A DNA stretch of 33,911 nucleotides from Fidelibacterota bacterium (GCA_016783665.1 JADHWC010000020.1:1-33911), one strand, 5' to 3'. Shown: positions 10,864-29,608, counted from the stretch's first letter. Program-made: numbers and translations. Notes: generated by a model not told the origin, from the sequence alone.

Positions 10864-12747
10864 ATGAAACAATTTATTGGTGTACTTATGGTATTTTTAA
10901 CTCTTAGCTTCTTTAATAATGAAGTCCTGTCACAAACGCGCGACCGGTCTGAGATTGCAGATCAGTATAAGTGGGATCTGACGGATCTTTATTCTTCCGA
11001 GGAAGCATATCAAAAAGCCAAAGATGAAACTGTAAGGAAATTCGACGGCATCCTGGAATACAAAGGCAAGCTGACGAAATCTCCTGTTTCACTCTTAAAG
11101 GGTTTGGATTACCACAGCAATATTATCAAGGAAATGCTACGACTTTCAAGTTATGCCGGTCAAAAATCGGACCTCGACACACGGGATTCCAAATATCTTG
11201 CCATGCGCCAGGAAATAAGCCAGTTGTTTACTCAATATAACTCAAAATCTTCCTTCATCGATCCGGAAATCCTGACAATGAATAAAAAGAAGATCGACAA
11301 ATTCCTTGCCAAAGAACCCAAATTAAGAATTTACAAACACTACCTTCACGACCTGCTTCGCAGTAAAGAACATATGCTTGGTGAAAAAGAGGAAAAGATC
11401 GTCGCCGAAGCCGGACTGGTTACAGGTACTGCCGGTTCAATTTACAGTATTTTCAAAAACGCCGATATGCCCTATCCGACAGTTAAATTAAGCAATAGCG
11501 AGGAAGTGCTCGTCGATCAGGCTGGATATGGTCGGTATCGTGCTACTCCGAATCGGGAAGACCGTAAAATTGTATTCGAAGCATTTTTCGGAAAATTCAA
11601 CGATTTCAGTCGTTCGTTCGGTACTCAGATTGACGGAAATGTAAAGTCACATATCTTCTATACCAATGTCAGAAACTACGACAATACACTCGAAAGAGCA
11701 TTGGATGCCAACAACATCTCCACCGATGTCTATCATTCACTAATCGAAAACGTGAATAAGAACTTGGATTCCTTTCATCGTTATCTGGAAATCAAACGCC
11801 GTATGCTGGGTGTGGATACACTGTTTTATTACGACTTGTACGCTCCGACAGTAAAAGGCATCGATGCTGATTTTGAATATGATGAGGCTATTGATATGGT
11901 CCTCTCCGCGGTGAAACCGTTGGGAAAAGATTACGTTAAAACAATCGATGAAGCATTTAAAAATCGCTGGATCGACGTTTATCCCACTCCCGGTAAACAT
12001 TCCGGCGCTTACATGTCCGGCAGAGCTTATGATGTTCATCCCTATATATTGCTGAACTATAACAATCTCTACAACGATGTGTCAACTCTGATACATGAAC
12101 TTGGTCATACAATGCAAAGCTATTACAGCAATAAAACCCAGCCTTTTCAGACAGCCATGTACCCGATTTTCGTAGCCGAAGTCGCATCAACACTGAATGA
12201 AATCCTGTTATTCACCGATGTTTACAATAAAACCACCGATGATGATGTGAAATTATCACTTCTCATGGAATACCTGGATGGTATCAAAGGGACCCTTTTC
12301 CGTCAGACTCAATTCGCCGAATTTGAGCTGCGCATGCATAAAATGGCTGAAAAAGGCGTACAGATCACCGGCGATTCCATGTCAGAGCTATATAAGAGCA
12401 TCGTACAGGCATATTACGGACACAATGTAGGTGTATGTGTCGTTCCCGATTATATCGACGTTGAGTGGGCTTATATCCCCCATTTTTACTATAATTATTA
12501 TGTCTATCAATACTCAACATCCTTTACGGCTTCCACAGCGCTTGCCGAGAAGATCATAGCTAAAGAACCCGGCGCTTTGGATAAATATATTGACTTCCTG
12601 TCTGCCGGAGGTTCCGATTACCCGATCAATCTTCTCAAAGACGCCGGCGTGGATATGACCACCTCCGAACCATTTGACAAAACCATGAAAATGATGAACT
12701 GGGCAATGGATGAAATCGAGAAGATTTTGGATGAAAAAGAGAGGTAA
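10864..12747 (+). CDS. pepF: Oligoendopeptidase F-like M3-family metallopeptidase with signal peptide
   Basis: Signal peptide MKQFIGVLMVFLTLSFFNNEVLSQ; DQYKWDLTDLYSSEEAYQKA; LIHELGHTMQSYYS (HEXXH); FVAEVASTLNE. Confidence 0.93.
   Translation: MKQFIGVLMVFLTLSFFNNEVLSQTRDRSEIADQYKWDLTDLYSSEEAYQKAKDETVRKFDGILEYKGKLTKSPVSLLKGLDYHSNIIKEMLRLSSYAGQKSDLDTRDSKYLAMRQEISQLFTQYNSKSSFIDPEILTMNKKKIDKFLAKEPKLRIYKHYLHDLLRSKEHMLGEKEEKIVAEAGLVTGTAGSIYSIFKNADMPYPTVKLSNSEEVLVDQAGYGRYRATPNREDRKIVFEAFFGKFNDFSRSFGTQIDGNVKSHIFYTNVRNYDNTLERALDANNISTDVYHSLIENVNKNLDSFHRYLEIKRRMLGVDTLFYYDLYAPTVKGIDADFEYDEAIDMVLSAVKPLGKDYVKTIDEAFKNRWIDVYPTPGKHSGAYMSGRAYDVHPYILLNYNNLYNDVSTLIHELGHTMQSYYSNKTQPFQTAMYPIFVAEVASTLNEILLFTDVYNKTTDDDVKLSLLMEYLDGIKGTLFRQTQFAEFELRMHKMAEKGVQITGDSMSELYKSIVQAYYGHNVGVCVVPDYIDVEWAYIPHFYYNYYVYQYSTSFTASTALAEKIIAKEPGALDKYIDFLSAGGSDYPINLLKDAGVDMTTSEPFDKTMKMMNWAMDEIEKILDEKER
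12689..12747 (+). repeat. Direct repeat copy A: 3' end of pepF
   Basis: atgatgaactgggcaatggatgaaatcgagaagattttggatgaaaaagagaggtaa = MMNWAMDEIEKILDEKER*; near-identical to 15088-15144. Confidence 0.85.
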
Positions 12748-12822
12748 ATCAGACCTATTGAATAAAATTTTATATCTGAAAATACTGTAATAGATTAATA
12801 CTCAGAGAATTAAAGCGAAATT

Positions 12823-13365
12823 TTATACTATAATAAATTTGATGTTGTAGTTATTCCACAAAGAATAAATCAATTCTTTCTCTTTTTTAGCAGATGAATT
12901 ACTCTTTATATCACAGCCGGGAGATGTGTCAACAAAGAAATATAAAACAAAATCAAACTGTGTGGAATAAACAATTGATTGTCCAATCCCCGACCTTAAA
13001 GCATTTCCATTGTTCCCTTTTTTTATTTCAAAGGCAATCCTGAGATTATTATATGGAATAAATACTGCATCTGGTCTATGATTAGTCGAAAAAAATGGAA
13101 AATTTGAAACTGTTGTTTTAGTATTTTGCTCCCACTTAAATTGTTTATCTACTTGATATTGTGCCTTTTTAATACTTATCCCAAGCCGTTCTACCAATAA
13201 TTGAGGTAATTCTTTTTGCAATCTAAGAAATAAAGCTTTTTGAATTTGGTTTTCAGTATCATTCTTTCTGCTAACAATTTCACAAAACATCTCGTGTTCT
13301 TCCATAATGGCAAGAATACCTTCTAGAATATTAATTCTTTTACTTGTTCGGGATTTTTTTACCAT
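12823..13365 (-). CDS. Stand-alone PD-(D/E)XK nuclease-like protein, AT-rich
   Basis: E-x-x-IQKALFLRLQKELP; RPDAVFIPYNNLRIAFEIKKG (D…EIK catalytic-type motif); RSGIGQSIVYS (motif IV-like Gln) …FDFVLYFFVD. Confidence 0.6.
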   Translation of the reverse strand: MVKKSRTSKRINILEGILAIMEEHEMFCEIVSRKNDTENQIQKALFLRLQKELPQLLVERLGISIKKAQYQVDKQFKWEQNTKTTVSNFPFFSTNHRPDAVFIPYNNLRIAFEIKKGNNGNALRSGIGQSIVYSTQFDFVLYFFVDTSPGCDIKSNSSAKKEKELIYSLWNNYNIKFIIV

Positions 13366-13608
13366 TTCTTTCTCCTCAATTTTACCATTTTCTATATATC
13401 TGCATTTTAGAATAAATGTCCGGTAAAAGACACTTTTTAGTGATTTCCCTAAATACAGTTATTTTCAAACTTATTAACATCCCTAGATTTTTCCGCATAA
13501 CATATTCACTATAACGGTAAACAATAATCATCAAAATGTCAATAGATTTTTTATTTCTAAATATATCAGTAAATTTTCTCAGTGGATAATTGACAAAAGG
13601 AGAAAATC

Positions 13609-13662
13609 ATGGATTTTATTGTCGAATTAAGCCAACTTTCTATCGTAAATGAACCTCTCTGA
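13609..13662 (+). other. Short ORF with strong RBS, possible gene remnant
   Basis: acaaaaggagaaaatcATG…: MDFIVELSQLSIVNEPL*; a +1 frame continues SEASLGEFFD* to a TAA. Confidence 0.25.
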
Positions 13663-13726
13663 GGCAAGCCTAGGGGAATTCTTTGATTAAAAATACAAAT
13701 AAAAAAATATATGAAAGGAAAAGAGA

Positions 13727-15037
13727 ATGCTTAAGAAAATTTTATTAGTAAGTATTTTATTATGTATATCATCATTATTTGCAAAAGACAAAGTGGCAAT
13801 CATACCAACATCGGATTATCATACTAATGTAAATATTGTAGATGAATTAACAGTATATATGGTTAATTGTGGAAAATATTCAATTGTTGATAGAGCAAGC
13901 ATGGAAACAATATTAGGAGAAATGGTATTTCAATTATCTGATGTATCAAATGAAGCAGTAATTAAAATAGGTGGATTGTTAAATGTTAAATATATTATTA
14001 CTGTAAGTAAAATAGGAAGTAATGTTACAGCAAAAATGATCGATGTTTCTACAGCTCAAATTGTAAATGCTGCAACTGATATATCATTTCAAAAAATTGC
14101 TAATGAACTGTCAAATACTACAGTATCTCTACCATCATCAACAAATAAAGATAAAATTGCAATATTGAAATTTGATACTATTATGTTAGAGGGAGTTGCA
14201 AGAGATTTTGAAAAGAAATTAGAAGCAAAAATGATGAAATTAAATAAATATTCAATTATTGATAGAAATAATTTAAGAAATATTTTAGATGAACAAGAAT
14301 TTCAATTTTCAGATAAGTCAGATGGAAATGGAGCTGAATTAGGGCAAATATTAAACGTTGATTATATCATTGTTGGATATATAGATAGATATCAAGTTAC
14401 AGTAAAAATGATTGACATAAAAACAGGAGAAGTTGTAAAGGCAATGGCACACGATACAAATACCCCTGTTCAGATGTTTAGTAGCAGTTTATTAATAAAC
14501 ATGAGAGTAATAAATGCAATTGCCAAAAAATTGTCTGCCACTGATAATTTATCTGAGAAGGTGGAAAAAGAAAAAATTGCAATTTCATCCTTTGGTAGAA
14601 CTTTTCAAAATGAGTTAACAGCCGAAATGATTAAATGTGGTAAATATTCAGTTATTGATAGATTGAATATACAACAAATCTTAAAAGAACAGAAATTCCA
14701 ATTATCTGATATATCGAGCGACGATTATAAAGAAATCGGTGAATTATTAAATGTTAAGTATGTTGTTACAGGAAGTGTTTCATCAGAGAAAGCAATGGCA
14801 AAAATGATTGATGTTTCAACAGGTGAAATTGTAAAAGCATCAGTACAAAGTACTTATGATAGTCGTAAGCAGTCATCAGTGTTATTTAATGGACATGGTG
14901 ATGCTGCAAAATATATTGCAAAGGATTTATCAGGTATTAAAATTGATGCTAAAAAACGTATAGTTAAACAGGGTTTTAAAACATTAAAGAAAATACTTGT
15001 TTTGGTTGTTCTTCTTTGTTTATCTTCACAAATTTAA
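13727..15037 (+). CDS. Exported protein with three tandem CsgG/LpoB-like (GNA1162-type) domains
   Basis: Signal peptide MLKKILLVSILLCISSLFA; three copies of the pattern CGKYSIVDR…ILxEQ.FQLSD…iGxLLNVKYIITV…AKMIDVSTGEIVKA. Confidence 0.75.
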   Translation: MLKKILLVSILLCISSLFAKDKVAIIPTSDYHTNVNIVDELTVYMVNCGKYSIVDRASMETILGEMVFQLSDVSNEAVIKIGGLLNVKYIITVSKIGSNVTAKMIDVSTAQIVNAATDISFQKIANELSNTTVSLPSSTNKDKIAILKFDTIMLEGVARDFEKKLEAKMMKLNKYSIIDRNNLRNILDEQEFQFSDKSDGNGAELGQILNVDYIIVGYIDRYQVTVKMIDIKTGEVVKAMAHDTNTPVQMFSSSLLINMRVINAIAKKLSATDNLSEKVEKEKIAISSFGRTFQNELTAEMIKCGKYSVIDRLNIQQILKEQKFQLSDISSDDYKEIGELLNVKYVVTGSVSSEKAMAKMIDVSTGEIVKASVQSTYDSRKQSSVLFNGHGDAAKYIAKDLSGIKIDAKKRIVKQGFKTLKKILVLVVLLCLSSQI

Positions 15038-15075
15038 ACAGGGTTATAAAACTTTAAAGATAATACTTTGGTAAC
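14964..15075 (+). repeat. Short direct repeat, offset 70 bp
   Basis: ttaaacagggttttaaaacattaaagaaaatactt (14964) versus ttaaacagggttataaaactttaaagataatactt (15034). Confidence 0.8.
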
Positions 15076-15085
15076 AACTAAATGT

Positions 15086-15144
15086 AAATGATGAACTGGG
15101 CGATGGATGAGATCGAAAAGATACTGGCAAAAAAGGGTATATAA
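15086..15144 (+). pseudogene. Direct repeat copy B: orphan duplicate of the pepF 3' end
   Basis: atgatgaactgggcgatggatgagatcgaaaagatactggcaaaaaagggtatataa = MMNWAMDEIEKILAKKGI*; the first three differences from copy A are synonymous (GCA/GCG, GAA/GAG, GAG/GAA). Confidence 0.8.
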
Positions 15145-15190
15145 TTCAATCTGAATTATTCAAATTTTGAATATAAACAAATGTAATGAG

Positions 15191-15219
15191 AAAAGGTGGG
15201 ATTTCACTCCCAACTTTTT
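15191..15219. terminator. Possible bidirectional terminator between convergent genes
   Basis: AAAAGGTGGGA-tttcac-TCCCAACTTTTT, one mismatch, A-tract/T-tract flanked. Confidence 0.65.
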
Positions 15220-15242
15220 ATTTCAATGTTTAATCGAAATTA

Positions 15243-16907
15243 CTAAAGTTGCTCAACAAAATATTTTGACGTCAGTTTCTCACCGGTTGCCCGAATGATC
15301 ATTTCGTCCCAGCGATACAGGGAACCGGGTTTAAAAACATTCTCGATAAAATAGCTGCCGATTTCAGGATTGTTCGTGAAACGGACTTCCGATACATTAT
15401 CCAATCCCTGGCTGACAGCAATAGCATTCAAATATTGCGCCGCCAGTAACCCTCCTAATTGGTAATTATGATAATAAACCGGGTATAGACAGACATGTAT
15501 CTTTGCGGCATAATCAGGCATATTACGGTTTTCAGGTCGTTTAACCATCTGGTATTTTTCAACTATATTCCACCAGAGTTTATTCAAGTCCTGAGCAGGG
15601 TTTGAGTACAATTCTCTTTCAAAATTCAGCATCACTAAAGACCAGCGGGCGAAGATCAATTTCTCCAAACGTAATGTTTTTGCGGTAACATCTATAATTT
15701 CCTGTTTTTGCTCATCAGTAAGATTAAGTGCTTCCTGCATCCAGGATGGATTTTTTGAAAGACGTTCAAAGAAAATGGCAACGGCTTCCGTAGTGAAGGC
15801 ATGAGCTGGTTCTCTTAAAAAGAACGGAAGATCTTTATCATGTTTCAGATCGTAAATCGCATGTCCGAGCTCATGGAGAGAAGTTGACATCCAGGATTCT
15901 GTTGCCTGGACATTCATCATAATCCGGACATCGCCTTTTCGATCCATATCCGTACAATATGCATGAGGATACTTGCCTTCCCTTTCATACAGATCGCTGG
16001 AATCCAGTATTTGATCAACATTAATATTGATGCTGTTGAAAAATTGCCGAGCCAATCCGACAACATCTTGATCCTCGTAATAACGATCCAGATTTATTTC
16101 CGTAATAACCGGCGCTTCCTGGAAAAAGGGATCGGAATAGTGCCAGGGGCTCAAATCACCGACACTGATTCCAAACCGCTCTGCCAAAACCTGATCCATC
16201 TCCATTTTAGCATCCATAAAAGGTTGTTTGGTATCCTCGTCAAGTCCATCGAAAATCCGTTGAATTTCATCAGGATCCTGCTCACTGATAATCAGGCTCA
16301 TTTGATAATAATTATCGAAGCCCATGGATTTAGCCGATTCATTGCGGAGTTTAACAAGTTTTAAAAAATCTTCTTCGACAACAGTGGCGACCTGTTTGGA
16401 TGCCTCCCAGGCTTTTTCCCGTAATGTCACGTCATTGCTTTCAGATAAAATCTTCTTAATAGCATTTCCGGTCACGGGTTTGCTATCGATTTTTCCTCTG
16501 AAAGTATTAAATCTCTGTTCGACTTCGGTCGATATTTTAGTAATTTTATTCAGTAATTCAGGATCGGTTTGATTAGCCAAAAATCCAAGGTACAATACTT
16601 CAATTGTGCGAGCAAGAACCGGATCTTTAATTTTGGCATTTTTGAATGTTTCGAGTCTATCAAAATCAGATTTATTCGAGTATATTTTTGTCAATTCAAT
16701 ATTAAGCTCGGCATATCGCTTATAGTATTCATCTTGTCCGGTGGCGGTCGCATTCCAGTAAGCAAGCGCGCTTTCCGATAATAGCGGCTCAATGACAGTT
16801 GTTAAGCTATCTACAAATTGTTTCGTTCCCATTTCAAGCTTCGACGGTTTTATTGTACAACTGATAACAAGCAGAAAAACAAGCATTATCGTGAAAATAC
16901 TTTTCAT
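15243..16907 (-). CDS. M2-family (peptidyl-dipeptidase A/ACE-like) metallopeptidase lipoprotein
   Basis: Lipobox LLVISC; ESALAYWNATATGQDEYY M2-like N-term; STSLHELGHAIYD HEXXH with downstream TTEAVAIFFERL glutamate. Confidence 0.85.
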   Translation of the reverse strand: MKSIFTIMLVFLLVISCTIKPSKLEMGTKQFVDSLTTVIEPLLSESALAYWNATATGQDEYYKRYAELNIELTKIYSNKSDFDRLETFKNAKIKDPVLARTIEVLYLGFLANQTDPELLNKITKISTEVEQRFNTFRGKIDSKPVTGNAIKKILSESNDVTLREKAWEASKQVATVVEEDFLKLVKLRNESAKSMGFDNYYQMSLIISEQDPDEIQRIFDGLDEDTKQPFMDAKMEMDQVLAERFGISVGDLSPWHYSDPFFQEAPVITEINLDRYYEDQDVVGLARQFFNSININVDQILDSSDLYEREGKYPHAYCTDMDRKGDVRIMMNVQATESWMSTSLHELGHAIYDLKHDKDLPFFLREPAHAFTTEAVAIFFERLSKNPSWMQEALNLTDEQKQEIIDVTAKTLRLEKLIFARWSLVMLNFERELYSNPAQDLNKLWWNIVEKYQMVKRPENRNMPDYAAKIHVCLYPVYYHNYQLGGLLAAQYLNAIAVSQGLDNVSEVRFTNNPEIGSYFIENVFKPGSLYRWDEMIIRATGEKLTSKYFVEQL

Positions 16908-17042
16908 TTTCCACCCCTTCCATATATTGGTTTTAACCTCACATTTGAATATAGATAGATAAAATAATTAAAACAAGGGCGTCAAAATTTCAAGATTGCA
17001 GGAACTTTACCTGTCCTTTGTTTTTAACAACCATCATGTCTT

Positions 17043-17099
17043 ACTCGTTACAAAGCCCCCGCCTTCTCACTCGTTACAAAGCCCCAGCTTTGTAATGAG
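17043..17099. repeat. REP-like palindrome plus half-copy
   Basis: CTCGTTACAAAGC-CCCA-GCTTTGTAATGAG (17070-17099; 13-bp stem with one G-T) and a direct half-copy actcgttacaaagcccc at 17043-17059. Confidence 0.75.
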
Positions 17100-17207
17100 A
17101 AGCGCATCCTTTGCTAAGTCAAGTAAAATTTTGTGGTCCCACTCATAATATTTGGTACAATTTTTGAGATAACCGAGCTTGTATATTTTCTTCTAAAAAT
17201 TCCAACT

Positions 17208-20200
17208 CTATTTCAAAATCATCATTTTCTTTGTTTTTAAAAAAGATTTATTTTCAGATTGTGCTCGTATCTGGTAAAAGTATACTCCGCTTGACAGCAT
17301 TTGGTCGAACCTGTTCTTACCATTCCAATTGACGCTATAATATCCGGGATTATGCTCTTTTGAAATTAGTTCACTGACCAATCTACCCTGGATATCATAG
17401 ATATAAACACTAACTTTTGAATGAATCGGTATCTGATACTTGATAATTGTCACAGGGTTGAAAGGATTCGGATAGTTCTGGTAGATTGCAAAGGATTCCG
17501 GGATAAGAAGTTTGGAATCGATCTGAACACTTTCATAACCATCGTCAAGTAATTCCGCTTCATCTCCGTAAGCCGAATAAAAATACTCAATATCAGACAC
17601 TCCTGCTTTGACGGCGCTAAATTGTAAAATCAGGATATTGTCATTTTCATCAACAAATTCACTTTCTCCGAACATCTGAACAATATCCAACAGCACTGTA
17701 GATTCATCTTCATGCTGCAATATCAGTTTGTCGGAATTCATGCTGATCCCTGTAATATTGTTCAGTTCCTGAGATTCCAGTGATTTTGATAATGACTTTG
17801 CCATAGATTCAGACTGTTCCGCGGCTTCCCGAAATCCATCAAATCTCAATAAGTCCTTGTTGTATTTAAATATGATCTGTGAACCTTTCAGTTGCATGTA
17901 CTGATCTGTTTTTATTTCAACTTCAAAACTACCGTTCTGGGAATTATTCCATGGGTCTTGACTGATTATCGGGTTCAGGTATATCATCGGAATGTGTGGC
18001 TCTTTATTTTTTACTGACTGATATTTTGATGTGATCACCGGTCGTGTTTCTTCAGTTATAGCAGGTATCTTTGCTAAGGATCGTGTATTTTCAATGTCCT
18101 GCTGAGCACCTGTCAAGTCGTTTTCATCCGGGTTTTCGGCAAACAAAGTACTGATTTTTGATAAACCAACCGTATAATTCCACATTCTCGCCAATGTAAC
18201 AAAATCCTCAAAATCTATCACTCCATCGGGATCCAAATCAAGGTACGGCAGCTCTCCGAGTGCAGGACCAATCTCATATAGCAGGTTTTGGTCTTCCTGA
18301 CTCCATTCCTCGGAAAAAATGATCAAGTCCTGGACATCGATAACATCAGAATTATCATAATCACCTAAGTATGGACTCGTGAACTGCCAGGAATAATCAT
18401 CGATTGGCGAACCTTCGGGATCGCCGTCTTTATCGCCGTCTAATCCTTTGCCCAGACTGTCTAATATTCCAGCGCCCAATTTGACGCTTAAAGTCTCTTT
18501 CGCCATGAACGGGTTGCCGGGAATGAAAAACAGTGACTGAATATTATCCGGGAATAAATTCTTTCCTGAGATTTCACCTGATCTCGTTCCTGAAACCTCA
18601 ATATTTCCAGGCAACGATGTTGTATCTATACGACGGTCAAAGTCTATTATGATTGTATCTTGCCATAATGCAAATTCTTTAGGATAATTGCCTATGACAA
18701 TTGGTCCGGTTTCATTATCTACGTGAAAGGCGCCGGTTCGCCCGGCAAGCCCGGTATCATTATCCAATGGAGTAACCTGAAACATTACTGTGCTGATATC
18801 AAGATTGGGGGTATCCTGATCTGAATGCCAAATAAAGGATAATGTATCTTTAGGCGCCGGTATATCATTGTAGTTAAAACTTATTGATGTAGCGTTCCAA
18901 TTATTACCTGAATCCGTTGAATATTGCATCAGGTAATTCAGTGTGTCATTTTCTGCATCTGTTACAATGAACTGTAATTCGATATCACCGGTTTTTTCTG
19001 AAAAGGGAGTAAACAGAGTATCAACAACAGGTATATCATTATTGTCAAGATGAAAAGCATTGGTAGAATCTGCAAACCCGATACTGATATCATAAGGAGT
19101 AATTTTAAATGTTACCCGTGTCAGATCCAGACCATTCAGGTCAATCATTGAATTCCAGATCAAACTGTCTATATAATTATTAAAATCTATGTCAGATGTA
19201 TCACCATCAACGGCTGCAATTTTCCAGTTATTACTGCCGTCTATTGAATATTCACAATGGATGGAAACGACGCTTAAAGAATCATTATCAATTGTATAAT
19301 GAATCAGCACGCCACCGGTCTGTTCGCCCTCAATATCTTTCAGGGTTATTGACGGAACGTTATTATCTACAAATACTGATATTGTATCAGTATAGCCTGT
19401 ATCATTGTCAGCCGGTGTCAGACTGAAAAGGATTGTATCGGTAACATTCGGAATATCTTCTCTTGAATTCCAGACTAACATTCCTGCATACCCTGTGCTA
19501 TCAAGGTCTGTAATATCACCGGTTATTGTGGCGGGTTTAAACAGATCTGTTTCCTTATCGAAATACTCAGCAAATATATCCAGTGTATCACCTTCTGTAT
19601 CGCTCAATGTATAGTTGATTGGAATATCGCCTGTATTTACACCGGGAATTTCTGCTAATGTTACTTCAGGAATATCATTATTGTCGAGATGAAAATCTGC
19701 TGTTTCATCAGGAATACCAGTATTGACATCCTTTGGTGTTATCCTGAACCGCACTGTGTGTAAATCAATCCCCGGAAGGTCTGATTCCGAGTTCCAGATT
19801 AAACTATCAATATAGTTTTGAAATCCGATATCAGAGGTATCGCCTGTAACAGATGCGTTTGACCAGTTATTTCCGCTATCGATTGAATATTCACAATGTA
19901 AAGAAACAGTAGTCAATGAATCATTGGCAATCTCATAGGGAATCAGGACATCCCCGGATTGCTCTCCTGAAATATCATCAAGCGCTATTGCAGGTAAACT
20001 GTTATCTACGAATATGGCAATTGTATAAGCCAATCCCGTATCATTATCCATTGCAGTCATGCGGAACTGTACCGTGTCGGCAATATTTGCAAAATCCTCC
20101 AGGGAGCGCCAGATAATATCGCCGGAGTATTGACTGCTATCCAGATTAGCCATTGTTCCGCTGACAGTTGCCGGTTTAAAAATCCGGGCTGCTTTATCAA

Positions 20201-23200
20201 AATACTCAGCGAATATATCCAGCGTATCACCTTCGGTATCACTCAAAGTATAGTTGATTGGAATATCGCCTGTATTTACGCCAGGAATTTCTGCTAACGA
20301 AACTTCCGGTATAGCATTGTTATCGAGATGGAAATCCGGCGTTTGATCAGGAATACCGGTATTTACATCCTTCGGCGTTATCCTGAACCGCACGGTATAT
20401 AAGTCAATGCCCGGAAGGTCCGATTCCGAGTTCCAGATTAAACTATCAATATAGTTTTGAAACCCAATATTAGAGGTATCGCCTGTAATAGTTGCTATAT
20501 TCCAATTCATCCCCGAACTTGTAGAGTATTCGGGGTAAATTGTTAACGTATCGCCCTCATCATCGCTTAAAACATAATCAAACCTGACATCCCCACTTAA
20601 CTCTCCCTCTATTACAGTTGTTATCGCTATCGAAGGCACTCCCAAATTGTCTAATAATATTTTCGTAGTATCCATCAGTCCGATATCGTTATCAGTCGGT
20701 GTAATACGGAATAAAATATATTGAGCCGCTTCGGGCAAATCTATCCTGCTTTGCCATATTACACTGTTTGAGTATTGCGTGATTCCTTCAGTATTGCCTG
20801 TAATAGTAGCATGAATCCAATTTTTTAACGTCTCGTCATAATATTCACACAAGATACTGAGCGTATCGTTTTCTGCGTCACTGAGTTGATAATTTATGGC
20901 TATATCATTATGCTGTTCGCCTGGCAGGTCGCTTATCACAATCAATGGTGCTTTATTATTATCAAGATGTATTGAAACAGTATCACCTTTGCCGAAAATA
21001 CCATTATCTGAAGGCGTTATAGCAAATAAAAGATCGAAGATATCATCAATTGGTAAGTCAGCCTGAGAATTCCACTCCAGTTTTCCTGAATAATTATCAA
21101 CAGTTATCCCTGTTGTATCACTATCCGTGCTGACAACATTCCAGTTATTACCATTATCTGCAGAATAACGACATATTAAATCAGTTGGATTATCTAATGA
21201 ATTCCCGATTTGATAATCGAATTCAACACTCTGTGAATATTCAGGAAGATTCATTGGATTAATCGAAACATTCAATTCCCACTTTGCGCTATCTTCATTC
21301 GAAAATCCACTTTCATTTCCGATACTATCAACCGCCGTGACGCGGTAATAATACATCTGCCCATTTAGTATATCCGTGTCTACATAAAATGTATCTGGTG
21401 GTGATGAAGCAACTACACTATCAATCAGAGTTGTTGCTGGTGACGAGGTATCCCTATAGATGTTGTATTTATGGAGATCAGATTCGGTGTTTTGATCCCA
21501 TCGGAGGATAATCTGATGGTTTCTGGGGGTAGCAGAGAGACCGGCTGGTGGCTTTGGAGGTATACCGGTTTGATCGAAATATAATGCTCCCATATCCAAT
21601 CGCGTGCCATCTGGATCCTGGTCATCCGGGTCGTCTACCCAGGTAATACCATCCCCGTCCAGATCGGGATCGCCGGCATTTATGCAAGGGGACATTGTAG
21701 AATCTGGTGTTGGAAAGTTCGCCCAGGACAAATGAAAATCCCCGCTACCGGGATCTAAAAAAAGAGGATCACATATGAGATTGTTTGAGCACTCAGGAAC
21801 AAAATTCTCTAACATCATGAGACTGGAATATGCAGAAAGCCCTTCATCGTAGTACAAATTGGTATTCCCATAAAAACAGTTGTATGCGCATGTATTTGGA
21901 TCTGAATTTTCCCCGGTCTCATATATACCATAACCTGTGTTTTCAGAAATAATATTATTAACGATAAGAGGACCATGTTGACTAATGCTTATGCCACCGC
22001 TGTTCGCATGGATAGTATTGTTGAAAACGAACGTAGAATCACTGCCTGATAGTATGAAACCATAATTATCATTTAAAAAGACCAAATTGTAGGAAATTTC
22101 AGCCCGGTCAGTGGTCTTAATGTCTAAGCCATAATCACTATTGGAAAAGATTAAATTCTTGAAAATCTCGGTACTACCGTAAGATGCTACTATACCTGTG
22201 AGATGATTATCAAATATTGTATTATATCTAATTATACTATGGAACCTAGGGGGAAAAAACCATGAGTGAATCCTTATGCCTTCATTGTTTGAGCTGACTT
22301 GATTGGAATCTACTCTTACATAGCCATCCCAGCTACCACCGCAACATATACCTGCACCACCTTCTCCACGATTTGCTTCGACTTCGTTATCTACCACAAT
22401 GACAGTATCAGCACTAATCAATATACCATATCCCTCCCAAGAAGCGCTGCTGCTTCCATTATATCTAATTTGGTTCTCCCGTATAACCACATGTCCGCTA
22501 CTTTGGCAACATATACCATAACAATATCCAGAAGCAATATTATTCTTGATTGTGTTGTTGATAATAATGAGGTTACCTCCTGAACAATAAATGCCGTAAG
22601 CATTTCCAGAGGTTTCTCCATTGTTTTCAATAATATTATTTTTTACTTGTAAGATATCACCTGAAGATAAAGAAGCCATCAATCCGCTTTCAGAGTTATT
22701 TAAAATATAGCATGAGCATACAACAGCACTAGCATTTTCACACTTTATTCCAGCTGGATTACCTCCCGTTATTGTAAAGTTTTTTACAGTAGTAGAACTA
22801 TCCGAAATGTCTTTAATAAGCAATGTATACCCATTATCTCCTGCATCCAATATTGTAGTATCCGCCCCTGCACCAATTAATGAGACCCCATCCTTCATCG
22901 TAATAGGGAATATCTCGCACCATCCTTCACTACCTACAGTACGGTCATATATGCCTGGCTTTACATGCACCGTATGATCCGTGCCGGTAATCTGTGATAA
23001 CGCAAAGGAAATGGTTTCCCAGGGGTTGCTTTCGGTTCCATCACCTGTGACATTGCTGCCATTGTTTCGATCCACATAGTAATCTATCACCTGAGTCGTA
23101 TCCCGTGGCGTTGCATTCACTTCATTCGAAAAAACGCTTTCGTTACCAGCGCTGTCCACTGCTGTAATTCGATAATAATAAGTCTGCCCATTCGTTAAGC

Positions 23201-26200
23201 CGGTATCAACATAAAATGTATCCGGTGGCGAAGATGCAACGCAGCTGTCAATGAGGGTTGTTGCTGGTGATGATATATCCCGGTAAACGTTATATTTATG
23301 AAGATCGGATTCAGTGTTTGTATCCCAGCGAAGTGTGATTTGCTGGTTGCCAGGAGTGGTAGAAAGGTTTTGGGGAGCAGTTGGTGGAGTTGTATCTATC
23401 TTAAAACTATCTTCAGCGGCCCAGGATGATCCTGCAAACGCATTGTCTATCGCTTGCACGCTCCAGTAATATTTGCCATCAGGAATACTTTTCAGAATAT
23501 AGGAATTGCAATGATTCATATTCCCAAGTTGAACGACTTTTCGATAACCTGATGAAATATCCGCCATCGGTGATTTTATTTCACAGCCACCCGGTGTAGT
23601 ACCGACCCGCAGATTATAGGTCAATCCATTCTGAAGTGTCTCAGCGTCAGTGGATTTATCCCAATTGAAAGTAACATTAGAATCTGTCACAGAAGTCGTC
23701 AATCCGGATGGTGCGGTTGGGACGGAATTCGGCGTTAGATTGTTATTGCGATAAATCTTAGAAACTCCACCCCCAAACTCTCCTGTGAGCAAGATATCGA
23801 GGTCACCGTCGTTGTCATAATCGCCCCATACAGAACTACGACCAACTCCCGTTAAACTAATTTCCGTCTGCTCGGTGAATGAGTTATTGCCGTTATTGCG
23901 GTAAATCTTGGAAATGTAGATACTGCTACCTGAATCTCCTGTGAGTAAGATATCGAGATCGCCATCATTGTCGTAATCGCCCCAGGCAACAGAACTATGA
24001 TCAACCCCAGTTAAACTGATTCCCGTCTGTTCTGTGAATGAGTTATTGCCGTTATTGCGGTAAATCTTGGAAACTAAACCATATCCAGTAAGCAAGATAT
24101 CGAGGTCACCGTCGTTGTCGTAATCGCCCCAGGCGACGGAACTTAAATAAACTCCTTTTAAACTGATTCCCGTCTGCTCCGTGAATGAGTTATTACCGTT
24201 ATTGCGGTAAATCTTGGAAATTGAACCACTACCCGTATCTCCCGTAAGTAAGATATCGAGATCACCGTCGTTGTCATAATCGCCCCAGGCAACAGAACTC
24301 CAAGTAACTCCCGTTAAATTGATTCCCGTCTGCTCCGTGAAGGAATTATTGCCGTTATTGCGATAAATCTTGGAAACAGGGGAACCATCAGTTGTACGAC
24401 CAGTAAGCAAGATATCGAGATCGCCATCGTTGTCGTAATCGCCCCAGGCAACGGAACCTTCGACTCCCGGTAAACTAATTACCGTTTGCTCTGTAAATGA
24501 GTTGCTGCCATCATTTCGGTAAATCTTGGAAACGTAATTGTAACTACCTGTATATCCTGTAAGTAAAATATCAAGATCGCCGTCGTTGTCATAATCGCCC
24601 CAGGCGACAGAACAGTAACCGACTCCCGTTAGACTAATTCCCGTTTGTTCGGTGAATGAGTTATCACCGTTATTACGGTATATCTTGGAAACATAGGCAC
24701 TACTACCTGTAATCCCAGTAAGCAAGATATCGAGATCGCCGTCATTGTCGTAATCACCCCAGGCTACGGAACTGTTATAGACTCCCGTTAAACTGATTCC
24801 CGTCTGCTCGGTGAATTGTTCGGTGAATAGTTCCGGAATTATGCTGATTTCATCTGAAAACTCACTCTCATTTCCAGCATCATCCACCGCTGTAATCCGG
24901 TAGTAATAGATCTGCTCGTTTGTCAAGCCTGTGTCCACGTAAACCGTATCCGGCGGTGATGAAGCAACACAGCTGTCAATGAGGATAGTCGCTGGAGATG
25001 ATGTATCTCGATATATATTGTATTTATGGAGATCGGGTTCTGTGTTGGCATACCAGTAGAGGGTGATTTGTTGGTTGCCGGGAGTGGCGGTGAGGTTTTG
25101 GGGTGGTTCAGGGGAAACACCCACTGGTGCAGCTCTGTTATTCTCATACGTTCCCATATCCGGGTTTGAGCCGGCGGGATTGGGGCGGGGATTGCCATCA
25201 AAATCTGTATCTGGTGCATAATACCAGATACCGTCAATCTGAATTGTATTGGTACCAGCACCAATGCAGGGTGAGGCATCAGTTAGATGGTAATCGCCGT
25301 TAGCCAAATCGACGAATTCGGGATCAACATCAATGTTGCCACTACCCCAGTTCACTGTGCCGTTGCTGTTGGTAACAATACTATCCCGTCCACCTTGGAT
25401 ATCAGAATAAGAAATTGTAATTGTATTAGAGGCATAAATTTCGCGGAACTCAATATTTGGGGAATTATTCCAGAAAATAGTATTCATCACTACGCAGCTT
25501 GCACTATTACTTAGAATAATGCCACCATTTGTATTTTCAGTGAGTGTAGCGTTATACAAAATTGGGTTGGATAAATATTCACACCAAATTCCGCCAGCAT
25601 ATGTGGCGGTGTTCCCGCTTATAACTGCATTCTCTAAGGTCGGGCTGGAATAATGATCTAAGAACATACCACCTCCATGCGCCGCCGAGTTTCTACTCAA
25701 CATAACATTTTTTATTCTGGGACTCGAATTATAACAATAAATTCCACCTCCATAGCGCCATGAAACTGTTTCATTCTCCCTTATATTTAGATTCAATAAA
25801 CTAGGACTCGAGTTACTGAGATAAATCCCACCACCATATGTCGCTGAACCATTCTGGATCGTTAACCCCTGCAGAATCGTGGTGGAGTCCTGTCCAGCAT
25901 CGATAATCACCACACTCCCACTCTGATTCCCATCAATCACCGTCTGTGATATATACGAAGTATCCTGAGTCGTCAGGAAAAGCGAACCGACAACAATATT
26001 CTTACCATTAAAGTTGATGTTTTCAATATAGGTGCCGGGATGAACAAGAACAGTGTCGCCATGAGCAGAAGCATCAATCGCCGCCTGTATTGTTGTGAAA
26101 TTGCCGGTGCCATCTTTCTTAACGGTCAGCATTACAGGGCTTGGAGTTCCCGATGTTTCATCAGAATAATCACTCTCATTTCCCAATCCATCAACAGCAG

Positions 26201-27803
26201 ATACACGATAATAATAAGTCGTTCCATTTGTAAGATTTTGATCAGCGAAAGATGTTAGAGAATCATCCACCGAAGCGATAGTATCAGCAACTCCCGACGG
26301 TGTGAATCCTTCAGTGGTACTGCGATAGATATAGTACCTATCCACGCTTGGAGCCGTGCTTGCTGTCCAGGAAAGAGTCAATTGGGTATTGCCGCTTGAT
26401 ACTGTTAAGTTGGTTGGTGCATCCGGTGATAGTGGCGCGGATCGAGGACTTTCATAGGCTCCCATATCGGGAATGGAACTTGGTGGATTAGGACGGGGAT
26501 TGCCGTCGATGTCTGTGGTTGGAGCGCCCTCGCTTGTGCCGGCGCCAATGCAGGGGCTGAAGTCTGAAAGGTTGAAGCTATCACTAGAAACATAAACAAA
26601 TAACGGATCACTGTTAAGATTCCCCTCACCGGGCCAACCGCCTTCCGCATCTGTGTAGGTAATAGCGTAATTAGCCGAATAGATACTGTTAAAGGATGGA
26701 TTACCAGCCGTATCCCCCCAAACAATCGTATTACGAACTTCTAAGGTTGAAGAACCGCTATGATAAATCCCACCACCATTACCACTTGCCGTATTATATG
26801 CAATAGTATTATTGATAAAAGTCGGAATATTAATACCACTACAATATACCCCGCCACCATGCGCATCACTACCCCCCGATACACTGTTTTTTACAATAAC
26901 ACAGTTTTGAATCGTCGCTGAAGAATTACTGCTGTTTATCCCCCCGCCATCACCACCGGAATAGCTGATTGTATTTTCCTTAATGACACAACCTGTTATG
27001 CTAGGAGAATCACCAGTAATGTAAATACCAGCACCATTCATCGCTGTGTTTGGCTTGTTCAATTCCCCAATAGTACAATTTGTAATTGTTGCAGAGCCAC
27101 CAGATATATGTATCCCACCGCCCTTACCATTATAAAGGCTTGAACTGTTGCCCGTGACATTGCAATCTGTAATCGTTGGAGAACCACTAGATATGTAGAT
27201 CCCGCCACCATAAGCGAAAGAACCGTCTGCACTGTTATCGGTGATAATACAATTTGTGATTGTTGGGGAACCACTAGATATAGCGATGCCACCGCCATAA
27301 GCGAAAGAACCGTCTGCGCTGTTGCCCGTGACATTGCAACCTGTAATCGTTGGAGAACCACTAGATATATTGATCCCACCACCATATGCGGAAGAACCGT
27401 CTGCACTGTTATCGGTGATAATACAATTTGTGATTGTTGGGGAAGAACCCGAACAGTAAATACCACCTCCCTCATTTGTAGAGCCCCTCGTGATCGTAAA
27501 TCCACTCAATACAGATGTTGAATCCTCGCTGTGACTAAAAATAAAACCCCCACCATTGCTCTGGCAGTCAATAATAGTCACATCTTTACCATTCTCTGAA
27601 ATTACCACTATCGCTTTACCCAAAAAATCAATGTCCCACTCCGTATACGTACCATCTGCTACCAATACAGTATCTCCATCTGTAGCGAAAAGGATTGCGG
27701 ATTGGATAGTAGTGTATTGAGATGGTACATTAAGCGTTTTTGCACTTAGAAATAATGGAATGGTTGTTAGTAATAGTAAAAATGAAATATTTTTTAGTCT
27801 CAT
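17208..27803 (-). CDS. Giant (3531 aa) secreted repeat protein: parallel beta-helix/choice-of-anchor Q-like, FnIII, VCBS/FG-GAP, Ig-like repeats, dockerin-like, cohesin-like, type A sorting domain
   Basis: Signal peptide MRLKNISFLLLLTTIPLFLSA; GGGIYISSGSPTITNC repeats; PPxNLTATPGNQQITLYWxxNTExDLHKYNIYRD FnIII repeats; SSVAWGDYDNDGDLDILLTG repeats; GDYDNSDVIDVQDLI…DLDPDGVIDFEDFVTLARMW; YQNYPNPFNPVTIIKYQI…GVYFYQIRAQ…KKMMILK. Confidence 0.95.
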   Translation of the reverse strand: MRLKNISFLLLLTTIPLFLSAKTLNVPSQYTTIQSAILFATDGDTVLVADGTYTEWDIDFLGKAIVVISENGKDVTIIDCQSNGGGFIFSHSEDSTSVLSGFTITRGSTNEGGGIYCSGSSPTITNCIITDNSADGSSAYGGGINISSGSPTITGCNVTGNSADGSFAYGGGIAISSGSPTITNCIITDNSADGSFAYGGGIYISSGSPTITDCNVTGNSSSLYNGKGGGIHISGGSATITNCTIGELNKPNTAMNGAGIYITGDSPSITGCVIKENTISYSGGDGGGINSSNSSATIQNCVIVKNSVSGGSDAHGGGVYCSGINIPTFINNTIAYNTASGNGGGIYHSGSSTLEVRNTIVWGDTAGNPSFNSIYSANYAITYTDAEGGWPGEGNLNSDPLFVYVSSDSFNLSDFSPCIGAGTSEGAPTTDIDGNPRPNPPSSIPDMGAYESPRSAPLSPDAPTNLTVSSGNTQLTLSWTASTAPSVDRYYIYRSTTEGFTPSGVADTIASVDDSLTSFADQNLTNGTTYYYRVSAVDGLGNESDYSDETSGTPSPVMLTVKKDGTGNFTTIQAAIDASAHGDTVLVHPGTYIENINFNGKNIVVGSLFLTTQDTSYISQTVIDGNQSGSVVIIDAGQDSTTILQGLTIQNGSATYGGGIYLSNSSPSLLNLNIRENETVSWRYGGGIYCYNSSPRIKNVMLSRNSAAHGGGMFLDHYSSPTLENAVISGNTATYAGGIWCEYLSNPILYNATLTENTNGGIILSNSASCVVMNTIFWNNSPNIEFREIYASNTITISYSDIQGGRDSIVTNSNGTVNWGSGNIDVDPEFVDLANGDYHLTDASPCIGAGTNTIQIDGIWYYAPDTDFDGNPRPNPAGSNPDMGTYENNRAAPVGVSPEPPQNLTATPGNQQITLYWYANTEPDLHKYNIYRDTSSPATILIDSCVASSPPDTVYVDTGLTNEQIYYYRITAVDDAGNESEFSDEISIIPELFTEQFTEQTGISLTGVYNSSVAWGDYDNDGDLDILLTGITGSSAYVSKIYRNNGDNSFTEQTGISLTGVGYCSVAWGDYDNDGDLDILLTGYTGSYNYVSKIYRNDGSNSFTEQTVISLPGVEGSVAWGDYDNDGDLDILLTGRTTDGSPVSKIYRNNGNNSFTEQTGINLTGVTWSSVAWGDYDNDGDLDILLTGDTGSGSISKIYRNNGNNSFTEQTGISLKGVYLSSVAWGDYDNDGDLDILLTGYGLVSKIYRNNGNNSFTEQTGISLTGVDHSSVAWGDYDNDGDLDILLTGDSGSSIYISKIYRNNGNNSFTEQTEISLTGVGRSSVWGDYDNDGDLDILLTGEFGGGVSKIYRNNNLTPNSVPTAPSGLTTSVTDSNVTFNWDKSTDAETLQNGLTYNLRVGTTPGGCEIKSPMADISSGYRKVVQLGNMNHCNSYILKSIPDGKYYWSVQAIDNAFAGSSWAAEDSFKIDTTPPTAPQNLSTTPGNQQITLRWDTNTESDLHKYNVYRDISSPATTLIDSCVASSPPDTFYVDTGLTNGQTYYYRITAVDSAGNESVFSNEVNATPRDTTQVIDYYVDRNNGSNVTGDGTESNPWETISFALSQITGTDHTVHVKPGIYDRTVGSEGWCEIFPITMKDGVSLIGAGADTTILDAGDNGYTLLIKDISDSSTTVKNFTITGGNPAGIKCENASAVVCSCYILNNSESGLMASLSSGDILQVKNNIIENNGETSGNAYGIYCSGGNLIIINNTIKNNIASGYCYGICCQSSGHVVIRENQIRYNGSSSASWEGYGILISADTVIVVDNEVEANRGEGGAGICCGGSWDGYVRVDSNQVSSNNEGIRIHSWFFPPRFHSIIRYNTIFDNHLTGIVASYGSTEIFKNLIFSNSDYGLDIKTTDRAEISYNLVFLNDNYGFILSGSDSTFVFNNTIHANSGGISISQHGPLIVNNIISENTGYGIYETGENSDPNTCAYNCFYGNTNLYYDEGLSAYSSLMMLENFVPECSNNLICDPLFLDPGSGDFHLSWANFPTPDSTMSPCINAGDPDLDGDGITWVDDPDDQDPDGTRLDMGALYFDQTGIPPKPPAGLSATPRNHQIILRWDQNTESDLHKYNIYRDTSSPATTLIDSVVASSPPDTFYVDTDILNGQMYYYRVTAVDSIGNESGFSNEDSAKWELNVSINPMNLPEYSQSVEFDYQIGNSLDNPTDLICRYSADNGNNWNVVSTDSDTTGITVDNYSGKLEWNSQADLPIDDIFDLLFAITPSDNGIFGKGDTVSIHLDNNKAPLIVISDLPGEQHNDIAINYQLSDAENDTLSILCEYYDETLKNWIHATITGNTEGITQYSNSVIWQSRIDLPEAAQYILFRITPTDNDIGLMDTTKILLDNLGVPSIAITTVIEGELSGDVRFDYVLSDDEGDTLTIYPEYSTSSGMNWNIATITGDTSNIGFQNYIDSLIWNSESDLPGIDLYTVRFRITPKDVNTGIPDQTPDFHLDNNAIPEVSLAEIPGVNTGDIPINYTLSDTEGDTLDIFAEYFDKAARIFKPATVSGTMANLDSSQYSGDIIWRSLEDFANIADTVQFRMTAMDNDTGLAYTIAIFVDNSLPAIALDDISGEQSGDVLIPYEIANDSLTTVSLHCEYSIDSGNNWSNASVTGDTSDIGFQNYIDSLIWNSESDLPGIDLHTVRFRITPKDVNTGIPDETADFHLDNNDIPEVTLAEIPGVNTGDIPINYTLSDTEGDTLDIFAEYFDKETDLFKPATITGDITDLDSTGYAGMLVWNSREDIPNVTDTILFSLTPADNDTGYTDTISVFVDNNVPSITLKDIEGEQTGGVLIHYTIDNDSLSVVSIHCEYSIDGSNNWKIAAVDGDTSDIDFNNYIDSLIWNSMIDLNGLDLTRVTFKITPYDISIGFADSTNAFHLDNNDIPVVDTLFTPFSEKTGDIELQFIVTDAENDTLNYLMQYSTDSGNNWNATSISFNYNDIPAPKDTLSFIWHSDQDTPNLDISTVMFQVTPLDNDTGLAGRTGAFHVDNETGPIVIGNYPKEFALWQDTIIIDFDRRIDTTSLPGNIEVSGTRSGEISGKNLFPDNIQSLFFIPGNPFMAKETLSVKLGAGILDSLGKGLDGDKDGDPEGSPIDDYSWQFTSPYLGDYDNSDVIDVQDLIIFSEEWSQEDQNLLYEIGPALGELPYLDLDPDGVIDFEDFVTLARMWNYTVGLSKISTLFAENPDENDLTGAQQDIENTRSLAKIPAITEETRPVITSKYQSVKNKEPHIPMIYLNPIISQDPWNNSQNGSFEVEIKTDQYMQLKGSQIIFKYNKDLLRFDGFREAAEQSESMAKSLSKSLESQELNNITGISMNSDKLILQHEDESTVLLDIVQMFGESEFVDENDNILILQFSAVKAGVSDIEYFYSAYGDEAELLDDGYESVQIDSKLLIPESFAIYQNYPNPFNPVTIIKYQIPIHSKVSVYIYDIQGRLVSELISKEHNPGYYSVNWNGKNRFDQMLSSGVYFYQIRAQSENKSFLKTKKMMILK
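19590..20490 (-). repeat. Long direct repeat inside the giant gene, period 639 bp (213 aa, two Ig-like domains)
   Basis: ggaatatcgcctgtatttac at 19621 and 20260; NSESDLPGIDL(Y/H)TVRFRITPKDVNTGIPD…LAEIPGVNTGDIPINYTLSDTEGDTLDIFAEYFDK repeated. Confidence 0.9.
23735..24835 (-). repeat. Seven tandem VCBS/FG-GAP-like coding repeats
   Basis: Seven units EQTGISLTGV-xxx-SVAWGDYDNDGDLDILLTG-(variable)-SKIYRNNGNNSFT. Confidence 0.93.
27140..27450 (-). repeat. Beta-helix coding repeats, 87-bp unit with 174-bp higher-order period
   Basis: Alternating SPTITNCIITDNSADGS.AYGGGI and SPTITGCNVTGNSADGS.AYGGGI; actgttatcggtgataatacaatttgtgattgttgggga repeats 174 bp apart. Confidence 0.85.
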
Positions 27804-27890
27804 TACATTTATCCCAATTAATTAATTGTCACAAGCGACACTCTCACAAGAAGTCTGAAAGGTTTGTGTTTTTGGAAGATTTGAGTCATT

Positions 27891-28661
27891 TCAATCCTCA
27901 ATTATGTACTTATCGATTTCTTTAAAATTTCTTTTCATCTTACTGTGAAAATAAATATAGTTTTCCTTCCCTCCAAAAAACTCCAAAACTTCCTTTTTCT
28001 TCAATTTTGATTGTCTGTTGTTGAGAATTTTAGCGTAGGAACTCCACGGATAATTTTCAAAAGATTGGCAGAGATGATGATAAACCGGATTTAAGTGTAT
28101 GTAGAAAATAATTCTGGAAAGATAATCTTCTTTATCTATGATTTTTCTTTTAAAATGTTTTTCAAACAGGCTGCCGTGACGATTTTCTTGCTTATTAATT
28201 GACTTAGCATAACAGTTAAAAAAATTGGAGAAAGATTGAATAATTGTTTTGTTGATCTCTAAACCTTGTAGGTCTCCCTGACCTGCAAGGTTTAAATATT
28301 CGGAATTGTCATTACTATCGTCTCTATTTATTAGACCTTGCAAGTCTTCCCGACCTGCAAGGTTTAAACACTCGGAATCGTCATTACTATCGTCTCTATT
28401 TATTAGACCTTGCAGGTTTTTAAAACCTACAAGGTCTTTGCTTCCTTTTACCTTAACTAAAAAGTGAAAGTGCGTTGGCAACAGACAGAAGGCATAGACT
28501 TCCAGGTATTCCAATAAGTATTTATCAAATTTCTGCAGAAAATATTTGTAGTTATCATCAGTATAAAAGATTTTTTCTTTGTTATTGCTTCGGTTGAAGA
28601 CATGATAGAAGTATCCTTCAATAAAGGGAATTTTGGTTTCTATGTGAAGATCACCGGTCAT
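27891..28661 (-). CDS. REP-associated tyrosine transposase (RAYT; Y1/Transposase_17-like)
   Basis: GYFYHVFNRSNNKEKIFY, AFCLLPTHFHFLVKVK (HUH-type HFH), RHGSLFEKHFKRKIIDKEDYLSRIIFYIHLNPVYH, YPWSSY. Confidence 0.9.
   Translation of the reverse strand: MTGDLHIETKIPFIEGYFYHVFNRSNNKEKIFYTDDNYKYFLQKFDKYLLEYLEVYAFCLLPTHFHFLVKVKGSKDLVGFKNLQGLINRDDSNDDSECLNLAGREDLQGLINRDDSNDNSEYLNLAGQGDLQGLEINKTIIQSFSNFFNCYAKSINKQENRHGSLFEKHFKRKIIDKEDYLSRIIFYIHLNPVYHHLCQSFENYPWSSYAKILNNRQSKLKKKEVLEFFGGKENYIYFHSKMKRNFKEIDKYIIED
28261..28293. repeat. REP palindrome within RAYT CDS (copy 1)
   Basis: AAACCTTGTAGGTC-tccct-GACCTGCAAGGTTT. Confidence 0.9.
28333..28365. repeat. REP palindrome within RAYT CDS (copy 2)
   Basis: agACCTTGCAAGTC-ttccc-GACCTGCAAGGTtt. 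Confidence 0.9.
28405..28437. repeat. REP palindrome within RAYT CDS (copy 3, variant arms)
   Basis: AGACCTTGCAGGTTTT-t-AAAACCTACAAGGTCT. Confidence 0.9.
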
Positions 28662-28702
28662 TTTTGTTGGTTTCTTTCATTACACTTCAGGTTATTTCCG
28701 AT

Positions 28703-28735
28703 AGACCTTGCAGGTCTTCCTGACCTGCAAGGTTT
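28703..28735. repeat. REP palindrome upstream of RAYT gene (copy 4)
   Basis: agACCTTGCAGGTC-ttcct-GACCTGCAAGGTtt. Confidence 0.92.
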
Positions 28736-28746
28736 TATTTGAATTT

Positions 28747-29589
28747 CTACCTTATTTCTATCAAAGATGAGACCTTCGAAATAATTTCTATTGGGTTATT
28801 ATTTGCTTTGCGGAAATAGCAGCCATCGTCGAATGTGATATTGGTTGTTCCTCGCTGAACTGCCTTAAAAACCACCCGAATAATTGGACCGCTGCCGTTC
28901 AGACTTTCCTGTTCACTTGAGATTAATGCAAGATAAACTGTCAAAATGCCATTCACAAGATCAAATTTATCAGTTCTTATTACCTGATGACCATTTAATA
29001 TAGAATCGTCTTCACATATTTCATATTCTTGAATCTGCAGATAGGCGGGATCAAAATTCAAAACAATTGACATTATCGCCAGTTCGGTTACCTCTTCCGC
29101 CATTACATATATGGAAAAGGTGTTATTAACAGAAGTTTCGATTTTTTTATGATAGAGCCACAATGCCGGACCTTCGATTGCATCCACCGTAAATGTCACT
29201 GTACTCGGCACATGTTGAACAGAGTCGGTTGAGTATTTGGCTTTGACCTGAAAAACATGATTGATTTCATCCAGATAATCAAGGATTGTGACGGTATCCG
29301 TGCTCCAGGACGACCAATCGTTATTGTTCAGTCGATACGAAAACTCACATTGATCGTTATTCCCGTACCATTTAAATGTCGTAAAATCATCATTGATAGT
29401 GCTGCCGTTTGCAGGTCCTTCGGATATGGTTGCCAGGGGTGGTTCATATTCAGGATTATCCGGATCTAACGGATTATCATCAGGATTTACATCATCTACC
29501 TGAGTCGTTAAAACATCGCACGACATTATGAATAACGACAACGGTAACAATAATGTGAAAATCAATAATGTTATTGTTTTTCTATTCAT
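28747..29589 (-). CDS. Lipoprotein with Ig-like region and C-terminal cohesin-like domain
   Basis: MNRKTITLLIFTLLLPLSLFIMSCD lipobox; LAIMSIVLNFDPAYLQIQEYE…NGILTVYLALISSEQESLNGSGPIIRVVFKAVQRGTTNITFDDG cohesin-like pattern. Confidence 0.7.
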   Translation of the reverse strand: MNRKTITLLIFTLLLPLSLFIMSCDVLTTQVDDVNPDDNPLDPDNPEYEPPLATISEGPANGSTINDDFTTFKWYGNNDQCEFSYRLNNNDWSSWSTDTVTILDYLDEINHVFQVKAKYSTDSVQHVPSTVTFTVDAIEGPALWLYHKKIETSVNNTFSIYVMAEEVTELAIMSIVLNFDPAYLQIQEYEICEDDSILNGHQVIRTDKFDLVNGILTVYLALISSEQESLNGSGPIIRVVFKAVQRGTTNITFDDGCYFRKANNNPIEIISKVSSLIEIR

Positions 29590-29608
29590 TTGTACTTCTT
29601 CTGTTTCA

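Follow-up and report, generated by a model that had tools for sequence, protein, structure and literature searches.

The oligoendopeptidase F gene pepF, located in a 33,911-nt stretch of DNA (the window, by which we mean this whole stretch) from an uncultured member of Candidatus Neomarinimicrobiota, is followed 2.4 kb downstream by an orphan copy of its own 3' end, and the AT-rich DNA between the two copies is a genuine foreign-looking insert that most likely displaced the native end of the gene by replacement of the tail between alleles. Specifically, we suggest, with a probability of about 0.45, that imported AT-rich DNA carrying the tail of a foreign pepF recombined with the resident gene inside the tail. 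The draft genome (2.38 Mb in 121 contigs) contains several other genes whose tails are repeated beyond inserted DNA.

Two copies of the pepF tail

The gene pepF (10864..12747, plus strand; Pfam Peptidase_M3, E = 2e-68) encodes an M3-family peptidase and is intact. Its last 57 bp (copy A, 12691..12747, encoding MMNWAMDEIEKILDEKER and the stop codon) reappear on the same strand as copy B (15088..15144, encoding MMNWAMDEIEKILAKKGI and the stop codon), 2397 bp away start to start, the two being identical at 43 of 57 positions without gaps. In a survey of 1,354 open reading frames (ORFs) of this genome, where the last 57 coding bases were compared without gaps with their best downstream match, nearly all ORFs scored at most 36/57, and the nine reaching at least 40 were paralogues or comparable partial tail copies. 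A degenerate DNA pattern of the pepF tail, run on 61 genomes, occurred twice in this genome alone and once in each of 12 relatives. A search for a second pepF in this genome yielded none, the gene being otherwise single-copy. Thus, the duplicated gene end noticed in the original prediction, which had been made from the sequence alone, is real.

The differences between the copies are distributed unevenly. In the first 13 codons five of 39 nucleotides differ and all five changes are synonymous (P ~5e-5 under neutral change), whereas in the last six codons the amino acids differ. The synonymous-only divergence makes the copies resemble the ends of two functional pepF alleles, as had been predicted, and speaks against duplication in place followed by decay.

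To assign polarity, we compared both copies with the gene ends of relatives, translated in frame from DNA: here G001 and G002 are congeners, G013 belongs to the same family, and G007 to another genus of that family. The C-terminal residues of pepF in the closest relatives are ILAKKGI (G003), ILANKGI (G009) and ILAKKGM (G013, where pepF is 83% identical to the gene considered here), and more distant relatives have related ends. Copy B carries this conserved end and copy A does not, its last approximately six codons being unlike those of relatives and terminating pepF with the aberrant ILDEKER; hence, the orphan looks like the native, original-type end, and pepF appears to bear the substitute. 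The prediction of a replacement tail at the gene 3' end therefore holds in that the tail has been replaced, but its polarity is reversed. Copy B differs from the G003 gene at six positions, each of them the third in its codon. Since B differs from G003 only at third codon positions, and from A over the 13 codons only by synonymous changes, it must have evolved within a functional gene until a short time ago. Taken together, A and B look like the ends of two functional alleles rather than a gene end and its decayed in-place duplicate, and the situation named at the outset as one that would overturn the original prediction, a full second pepF decayed in place, is not what we observe.

A bidirectional terminator-like hairpin was found by a hairpin scan 3' of copy B (15197..15212), while the same scan detected none after copy A; by eye, hairpins also follow pepF in several relatives. 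The 3' flank of B is marginally similar to the flanks in relatives (P 0.06-0.09), which carries little weight, as the latter were taken out of frame by one base and with the gene tail included.

Compared to the congener G002, the N-terminal part of pepF is near-native outside one diverged block of ~150 nt (about nt 180-330 of the gene) situated amid high identity (L098 3346-3786 vs window 10864-11304). By third-position identity, G002 is the apparent odd one out in this block. The block suggests that pepF alleles recombine within the genus, but it is no marker of the insert. In the 3' half of the gene we saw no clear donor-derived tract.

Composition and gene content of the insert

The insert between the copies is ~2.3 kb long, and the GC content drops in it from ~0.42 to 0.26-0.30. 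Ranked within 1,048 sampled ORFs of this genome, its two genes are at percentiles 2.9 and 1.0 by GC content and 3.4 and 0.4 by GC content at third codon positions. The predicted AT-rich interior is thus supported by GC content, both overall and at third codon positions, and the DNA between the tails looks foreign.

The first gene (12823..13365, minus strand) encodes a putative 180-aa nuclease-like protein, labelled PD-(D/E)XK by motifs and weak matches only. The motifs HRPDAV, FEIKKG and GQSIVY, whose residues also occur in two distant homologues from the same phylum, agree with the label given to this gene in the original prediction, while the Pfam match to Tox-REase-9 is below the cutoff. 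Searches of 199 genomes, of GTDB and viral contigs, and of plasmid and phage records yielded no homologue beyond these two, with no match at all among the plasmids and phages. A search against solved structures and a single-sequence fold (mean pLDDT 41) were uninformative.

The second gene (13727..15037, plus strand) encodes a 436-aa protein with three CsgG/LpoB-like units (Pfam CsgG, E = 7e-21; internal repeats D1, D3 and D4), as had been proposed. In 298 genomes and viral contigs it has partial CsgG matches only. Its last ~18 residues resemble a signal peptide; a run-on of the CsgG C-terminus into the signal peptide of a truncated second gene was considered and rejected, having no DNA-level support. 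Searches with the cargo thus gave no close relative of it elsewhere.

Neither ORF of the insert is a recombinase or integrase according to Pfam and PHROGs, in agreement with the original prediction. Neither protein matched the PADLOC defence library, the insert contains no methyltransferase gene, and an Rfam scan gave no match. Just after tail A there is a decayed left-end remnant of a dispersed insertion sequence (IS)-like element (12780..12830, plus strand; 86% over 49 bp, E ~1e-8), which matches seven contig ends of this genome, at which the element breaks the assembly, and two contig ends of G011. It is uncertain whether the remnant starts as early as 12743, where GGTAAATCAGAC resembles the element terminus GGTATAATAGAC. 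The first codons of the element (MVKKTCPRCHSRQTK) are, in our reading, reminiscent of IS1-type InsA. This single remnant beside tail A is all that was found of IS structure at the borders; complete ends with short target duplications were seen at neither. Further repeats are a short degenerate copy of a dispersed intergenic repeat (ctgaggcaagcctaggggaattc; 13645..13692), 80-82% identical to copies in contigs C20 and C7 (E = 2e-4 and 3e-3), and, at the right edge of the insert, a 35-bp direct repeat (D5; 14964..15068, plus strand) with 91% identity and spacing 70.

The downstream flank

Beyond copy B lies an M2/M3-like peptidase gene (below, the M2 gene; 15243..16907, minus strand; assigned by Pfam), convergent with pepF, the stop codons of B and of this gene being separated by 98 bp (15145-15242). 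In G007, too, pepF converges with the M2 gene, at a distance of ~154 bp, which is comparable to the reconstructed empty site; in G006 they are separated by one extra gene, which we take to be magnesium-transporter-like. Thus, the empty site expected by the original prediction has a counterpart only in another genus, the congeners having no such junction, and an empty site in the same genus is plausible.

The M2 gene has rearrangements on either side. Compared to G001, there is ~15 kb of extra DNA between this gene and position 32270 (window 16989-32270), encoding a 3,531-aa repeat protein, a cohesin-domain protein and a CsgG/PEGA protein (29609-31816).

Similar structures elsewhere in the genome

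We surveyed gene tails in the first 20 kb of each of the contigs C1-C119 (1.67 Mb total). Tails copied downstream, mostly beyond AT-rich inserts, were found for an acyl-CoA dehydrogenase gene, a urocanase-like gene, an ABC-F-type gene, and one more gene at locus L183. The acyl-CoA dehydrogenase gene (L267; G000:C64, 12746-18512) has two extra tail copies. The first, 164 bp long (92%), follows an AT-rich gene of the AAA/DUF4143 type; the next (82%), which is shorter and makes three tails in all, lies past more AT-rich genes, one of them an HNH gene. For the gene at L291 (G000:C88, 2829-6100), which we tentatively read as urocanase, a tail copy of 143 bp (94%) follows a DUF6364 and PIN pair, likely a toxin-antitoxin module; two related RAYT-like transposase genes come next. 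At the ABC-F-type gene (L316; G000:C113, 2538-4662) an 89% copy of a near-3' segment lies right after an RHH-like/PIN-like pair identified by eye. At L183 (G000:C1, 8539-8931) the 3' segment of the gene is duplicated with 89% identity, and the ~180 bp between the copies are not AT-rich.

The L183 spacer holds a dispersed REP-like repeat, R1, which is also present after the ABC-F-type and urocanase-like genes. We rejected R1 as a cassette end, since it recurs in other intergenic places and adjoins the urocanase-like gene in G002 too; probably, it is an older REP-like repeat.

For the acyl-CoA dehydrogenase and urocanase-like genes, similarity to the congeners (G001 and G002 in the case of L267) extends slightly beyond the stop codon of the gene and is then lost, so these are apparent empty sites; homologues of the cargo of both inserts sit at other places in relatives. 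In the control, 1.17 Mb from 80 other bacterial loci, we observed one weak 3' case, so that the excess of tail-flanked inserts in this genome is suggestive. Orphan copies of 3' ends and of 5' ends come from about five genes and one gene, respectively, in this genome, compared to one and four rows in the control, these numbers being too small to prove a bias.

Several other loci have related architecture. At L218 (G000:C37, 814-4358) a RelE-like gene is set apart from an MscS-like channel gene by direct repeats of 86-229 bp, an arrangement reminiscent of stacked cassettes. At L289 (G000:C86, 673-1797) an AbrB-like/RelE-like pair with an AT-rich interior is enclosed by direct repeats of 57 bp (95%) and 70 bp (87%). 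At L217 (G000:C36, 7198-7857) 135-bp direct repeats (93%), common to L289, surround a DUF559 family gene, and at L275 (G000:C72, 3039-3972) 143-bp direct repeats (90%) surround an IS200-like transposase gene.

Origin of the arrangement

Under the proposed exchange between alleles, an AT-rich segment would have arrived bearing the short 3' end of a foreign pepF. An exchange with the resident gene within the tail would join the resident body to the imported end, yielding copy A and leaving the gene intact, while the resident end with its terminator (copy B and 15145-15242) would be displaced 2.4 kb downstream, beyond the cargo. Both junctions could thus stem from one reciprocal exchange, and such a single event within the tail would account for a native body with a foreign end in A and a native end in B. 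The exchange would have relied on tail homology, via homologous or homology-facilitated illegitimate recombination, and not on a dedicated integrase.

Four observations weigh against this explanation. Firstly, with 57 bp in all and no exact match longer than 16 bp, the tails are very short for homologous recombination. Secondly, a search for a donor locus combining a foreign pepF tail with this cargo found none. Thirdly, in G001 and G002 pepF does not adjoin the M2 gene: homology starts at the stop codon of the latter, and there is other DNA beyond; in G002 the pepF contig terminates inside pepF. Finally, the tail differences at the parallel loci fit neutral decay or weak constraint (urocanase-like gene, P 0.14; acyl-CoA dehydrogenase gene, P 0.02), and being compatible with decay, these loci need not share the exact history of pepF. 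As for a broader version, in which this lineage recurrently takes up nuclease, ATPase or toxin-antitoxin cassettes at gene 3' ends without an integrase, each with a functional replacement tail, host genes serving as neutral landing sites with tandem stacking, we regard it as highly speculative.

Among the alternatives, the first is a dedicated element that integrates in the manner of e14 or phage 21, with the pepF tail as attP and the integrase lost or acting in trans, the insert then being a small satellite or a decayed remainder. The topology of the product is the same as that of e14 in icd, and the two further, progressively decayed tail copies of the acyl-CoA dehydrogenase gene are like tandem accretion at one site. 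On the other hand, the insert holds two genes only and no recombinase, and the pepF tail pattern was found on no viral contig. Moreover, the tails of the parallel cases have no obvious common core, which argues against one dedicated integrase and is better explained by homology. This alternative is unlikely, and the originally predicted mobile element with its own attachment site is hypothetical, no close relative of the cargo having been found elsewhere.

Insertion with long target duplication seems less likely still; here the cargo, on entry, would have duplicated ~60 bp at the end of the resident pepF, with later divergence of the two copies. A nuclease-like gene between long direct repeats is what this process would leave, as it is cited in PMC3031569 and PMC4978471, and the inserts with 60-230-bp repeats and decayed orphans at other loci (the ABC-F-type, urocanase-like, DUF559 and toxin-antitoxin ones) fit it well. 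At pepF, however, the unselected copy should have gained non-synonymous changes, whereas B is free of them and conforms to the family consensus, and it is the gene-linked A that deviates.

We find it equally hard to favour the possibility that a second full-length pepF, either resident or acquired, once existed and that copy B is what is left of it after the rest was deleted or replaced by AT-rich DNA. The intact coding sequence of B and the terminator-like hairpin are consistent with such a remnant, allelic divergence would be expected, and a partial tandem gene remnant does exist elsewhere in this genome (L200). Yet homology to pepF is absent upstream of position 15082, and the existing gene, with its N-terminal part largely native in comparison with G002, is unlikely to be wholly foreign. 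Finally, an artefact joining unrelated pieces of this metagenome-assembled genome, as might be suspected from a 121-contig draft in which congener homology stops exactly at the M2 stop codon, is very improbable, since the longest exact run shared by A and B, 16 nt, is too short for an ordinary k-mer mis-join, and like structures occur independently on several contigs.

If gene tails do serve as general docking places requiring no integrase, islands would be recognisable by orphan gene tails even when marked by neither an integrase nor a tRNA, and synonymous-only divergence of the tails would flag imported copies. It would also explain, in a testable way, how uncultured bacteria can accommodate toxin-antitoxin and nuclease genes without harm to the host genes. 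What deserves attention here is that tail-flanked cargo occurs repeatedly within a single genome.

Comparison with known systems

Homology-facilitated illegitimate recombination, where foreign DNA enters without an integrase via one homologous stretch and an illegitimate junction (PMC3240628), is known from laboratory transformation and conjugation; here we only infer it, the homology being short and the donor not found. Insertion with long target duplication was described for restriction-modification genes (Nobusato et al. 2000, as cited in PMC4978471 and PMC3031569). The pepF locus is similar in having small nuclease-bearing cargo between long direct repeats and no transposase, and differs in that the insert lacks a methyltransferase and the repeats diverge as two functional alleles, not as one with a decayed duplicate. 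Both repeats are unlikely to come from the same resident sequence, given their synonymous-only divergence and the non-native end of A.

The locus also resembles e14 and phage 21, whose site is the 3' end of the Escherichia coli gene icd. In e14 the duplicated tail is 165 bp long, with 12 exchanges and two conservative replacements, and the reading frame remains intact (PMC11148124, PMC6379469). In both systems the 3' end of the gene is duplicated, the insert brings in a substitute tail whose changes are mostly silent (at pepF, 5/5 in the first 13 codons), the original tail lies at the far end, and the gene remains functional in e14 and intact here. Unlike e14, a prophage with an integrase, the ~2.3-kb insert in pepF has no recognisable site-specific integrase or other recombinase among its two ORFs (Pfam, PHROGs), and its substitute tail alters the last residues of the protein. 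Thus, while the mechanism proposed here is unproven, its end product is already known from e14 in icd, at pepF with no integrase visible.

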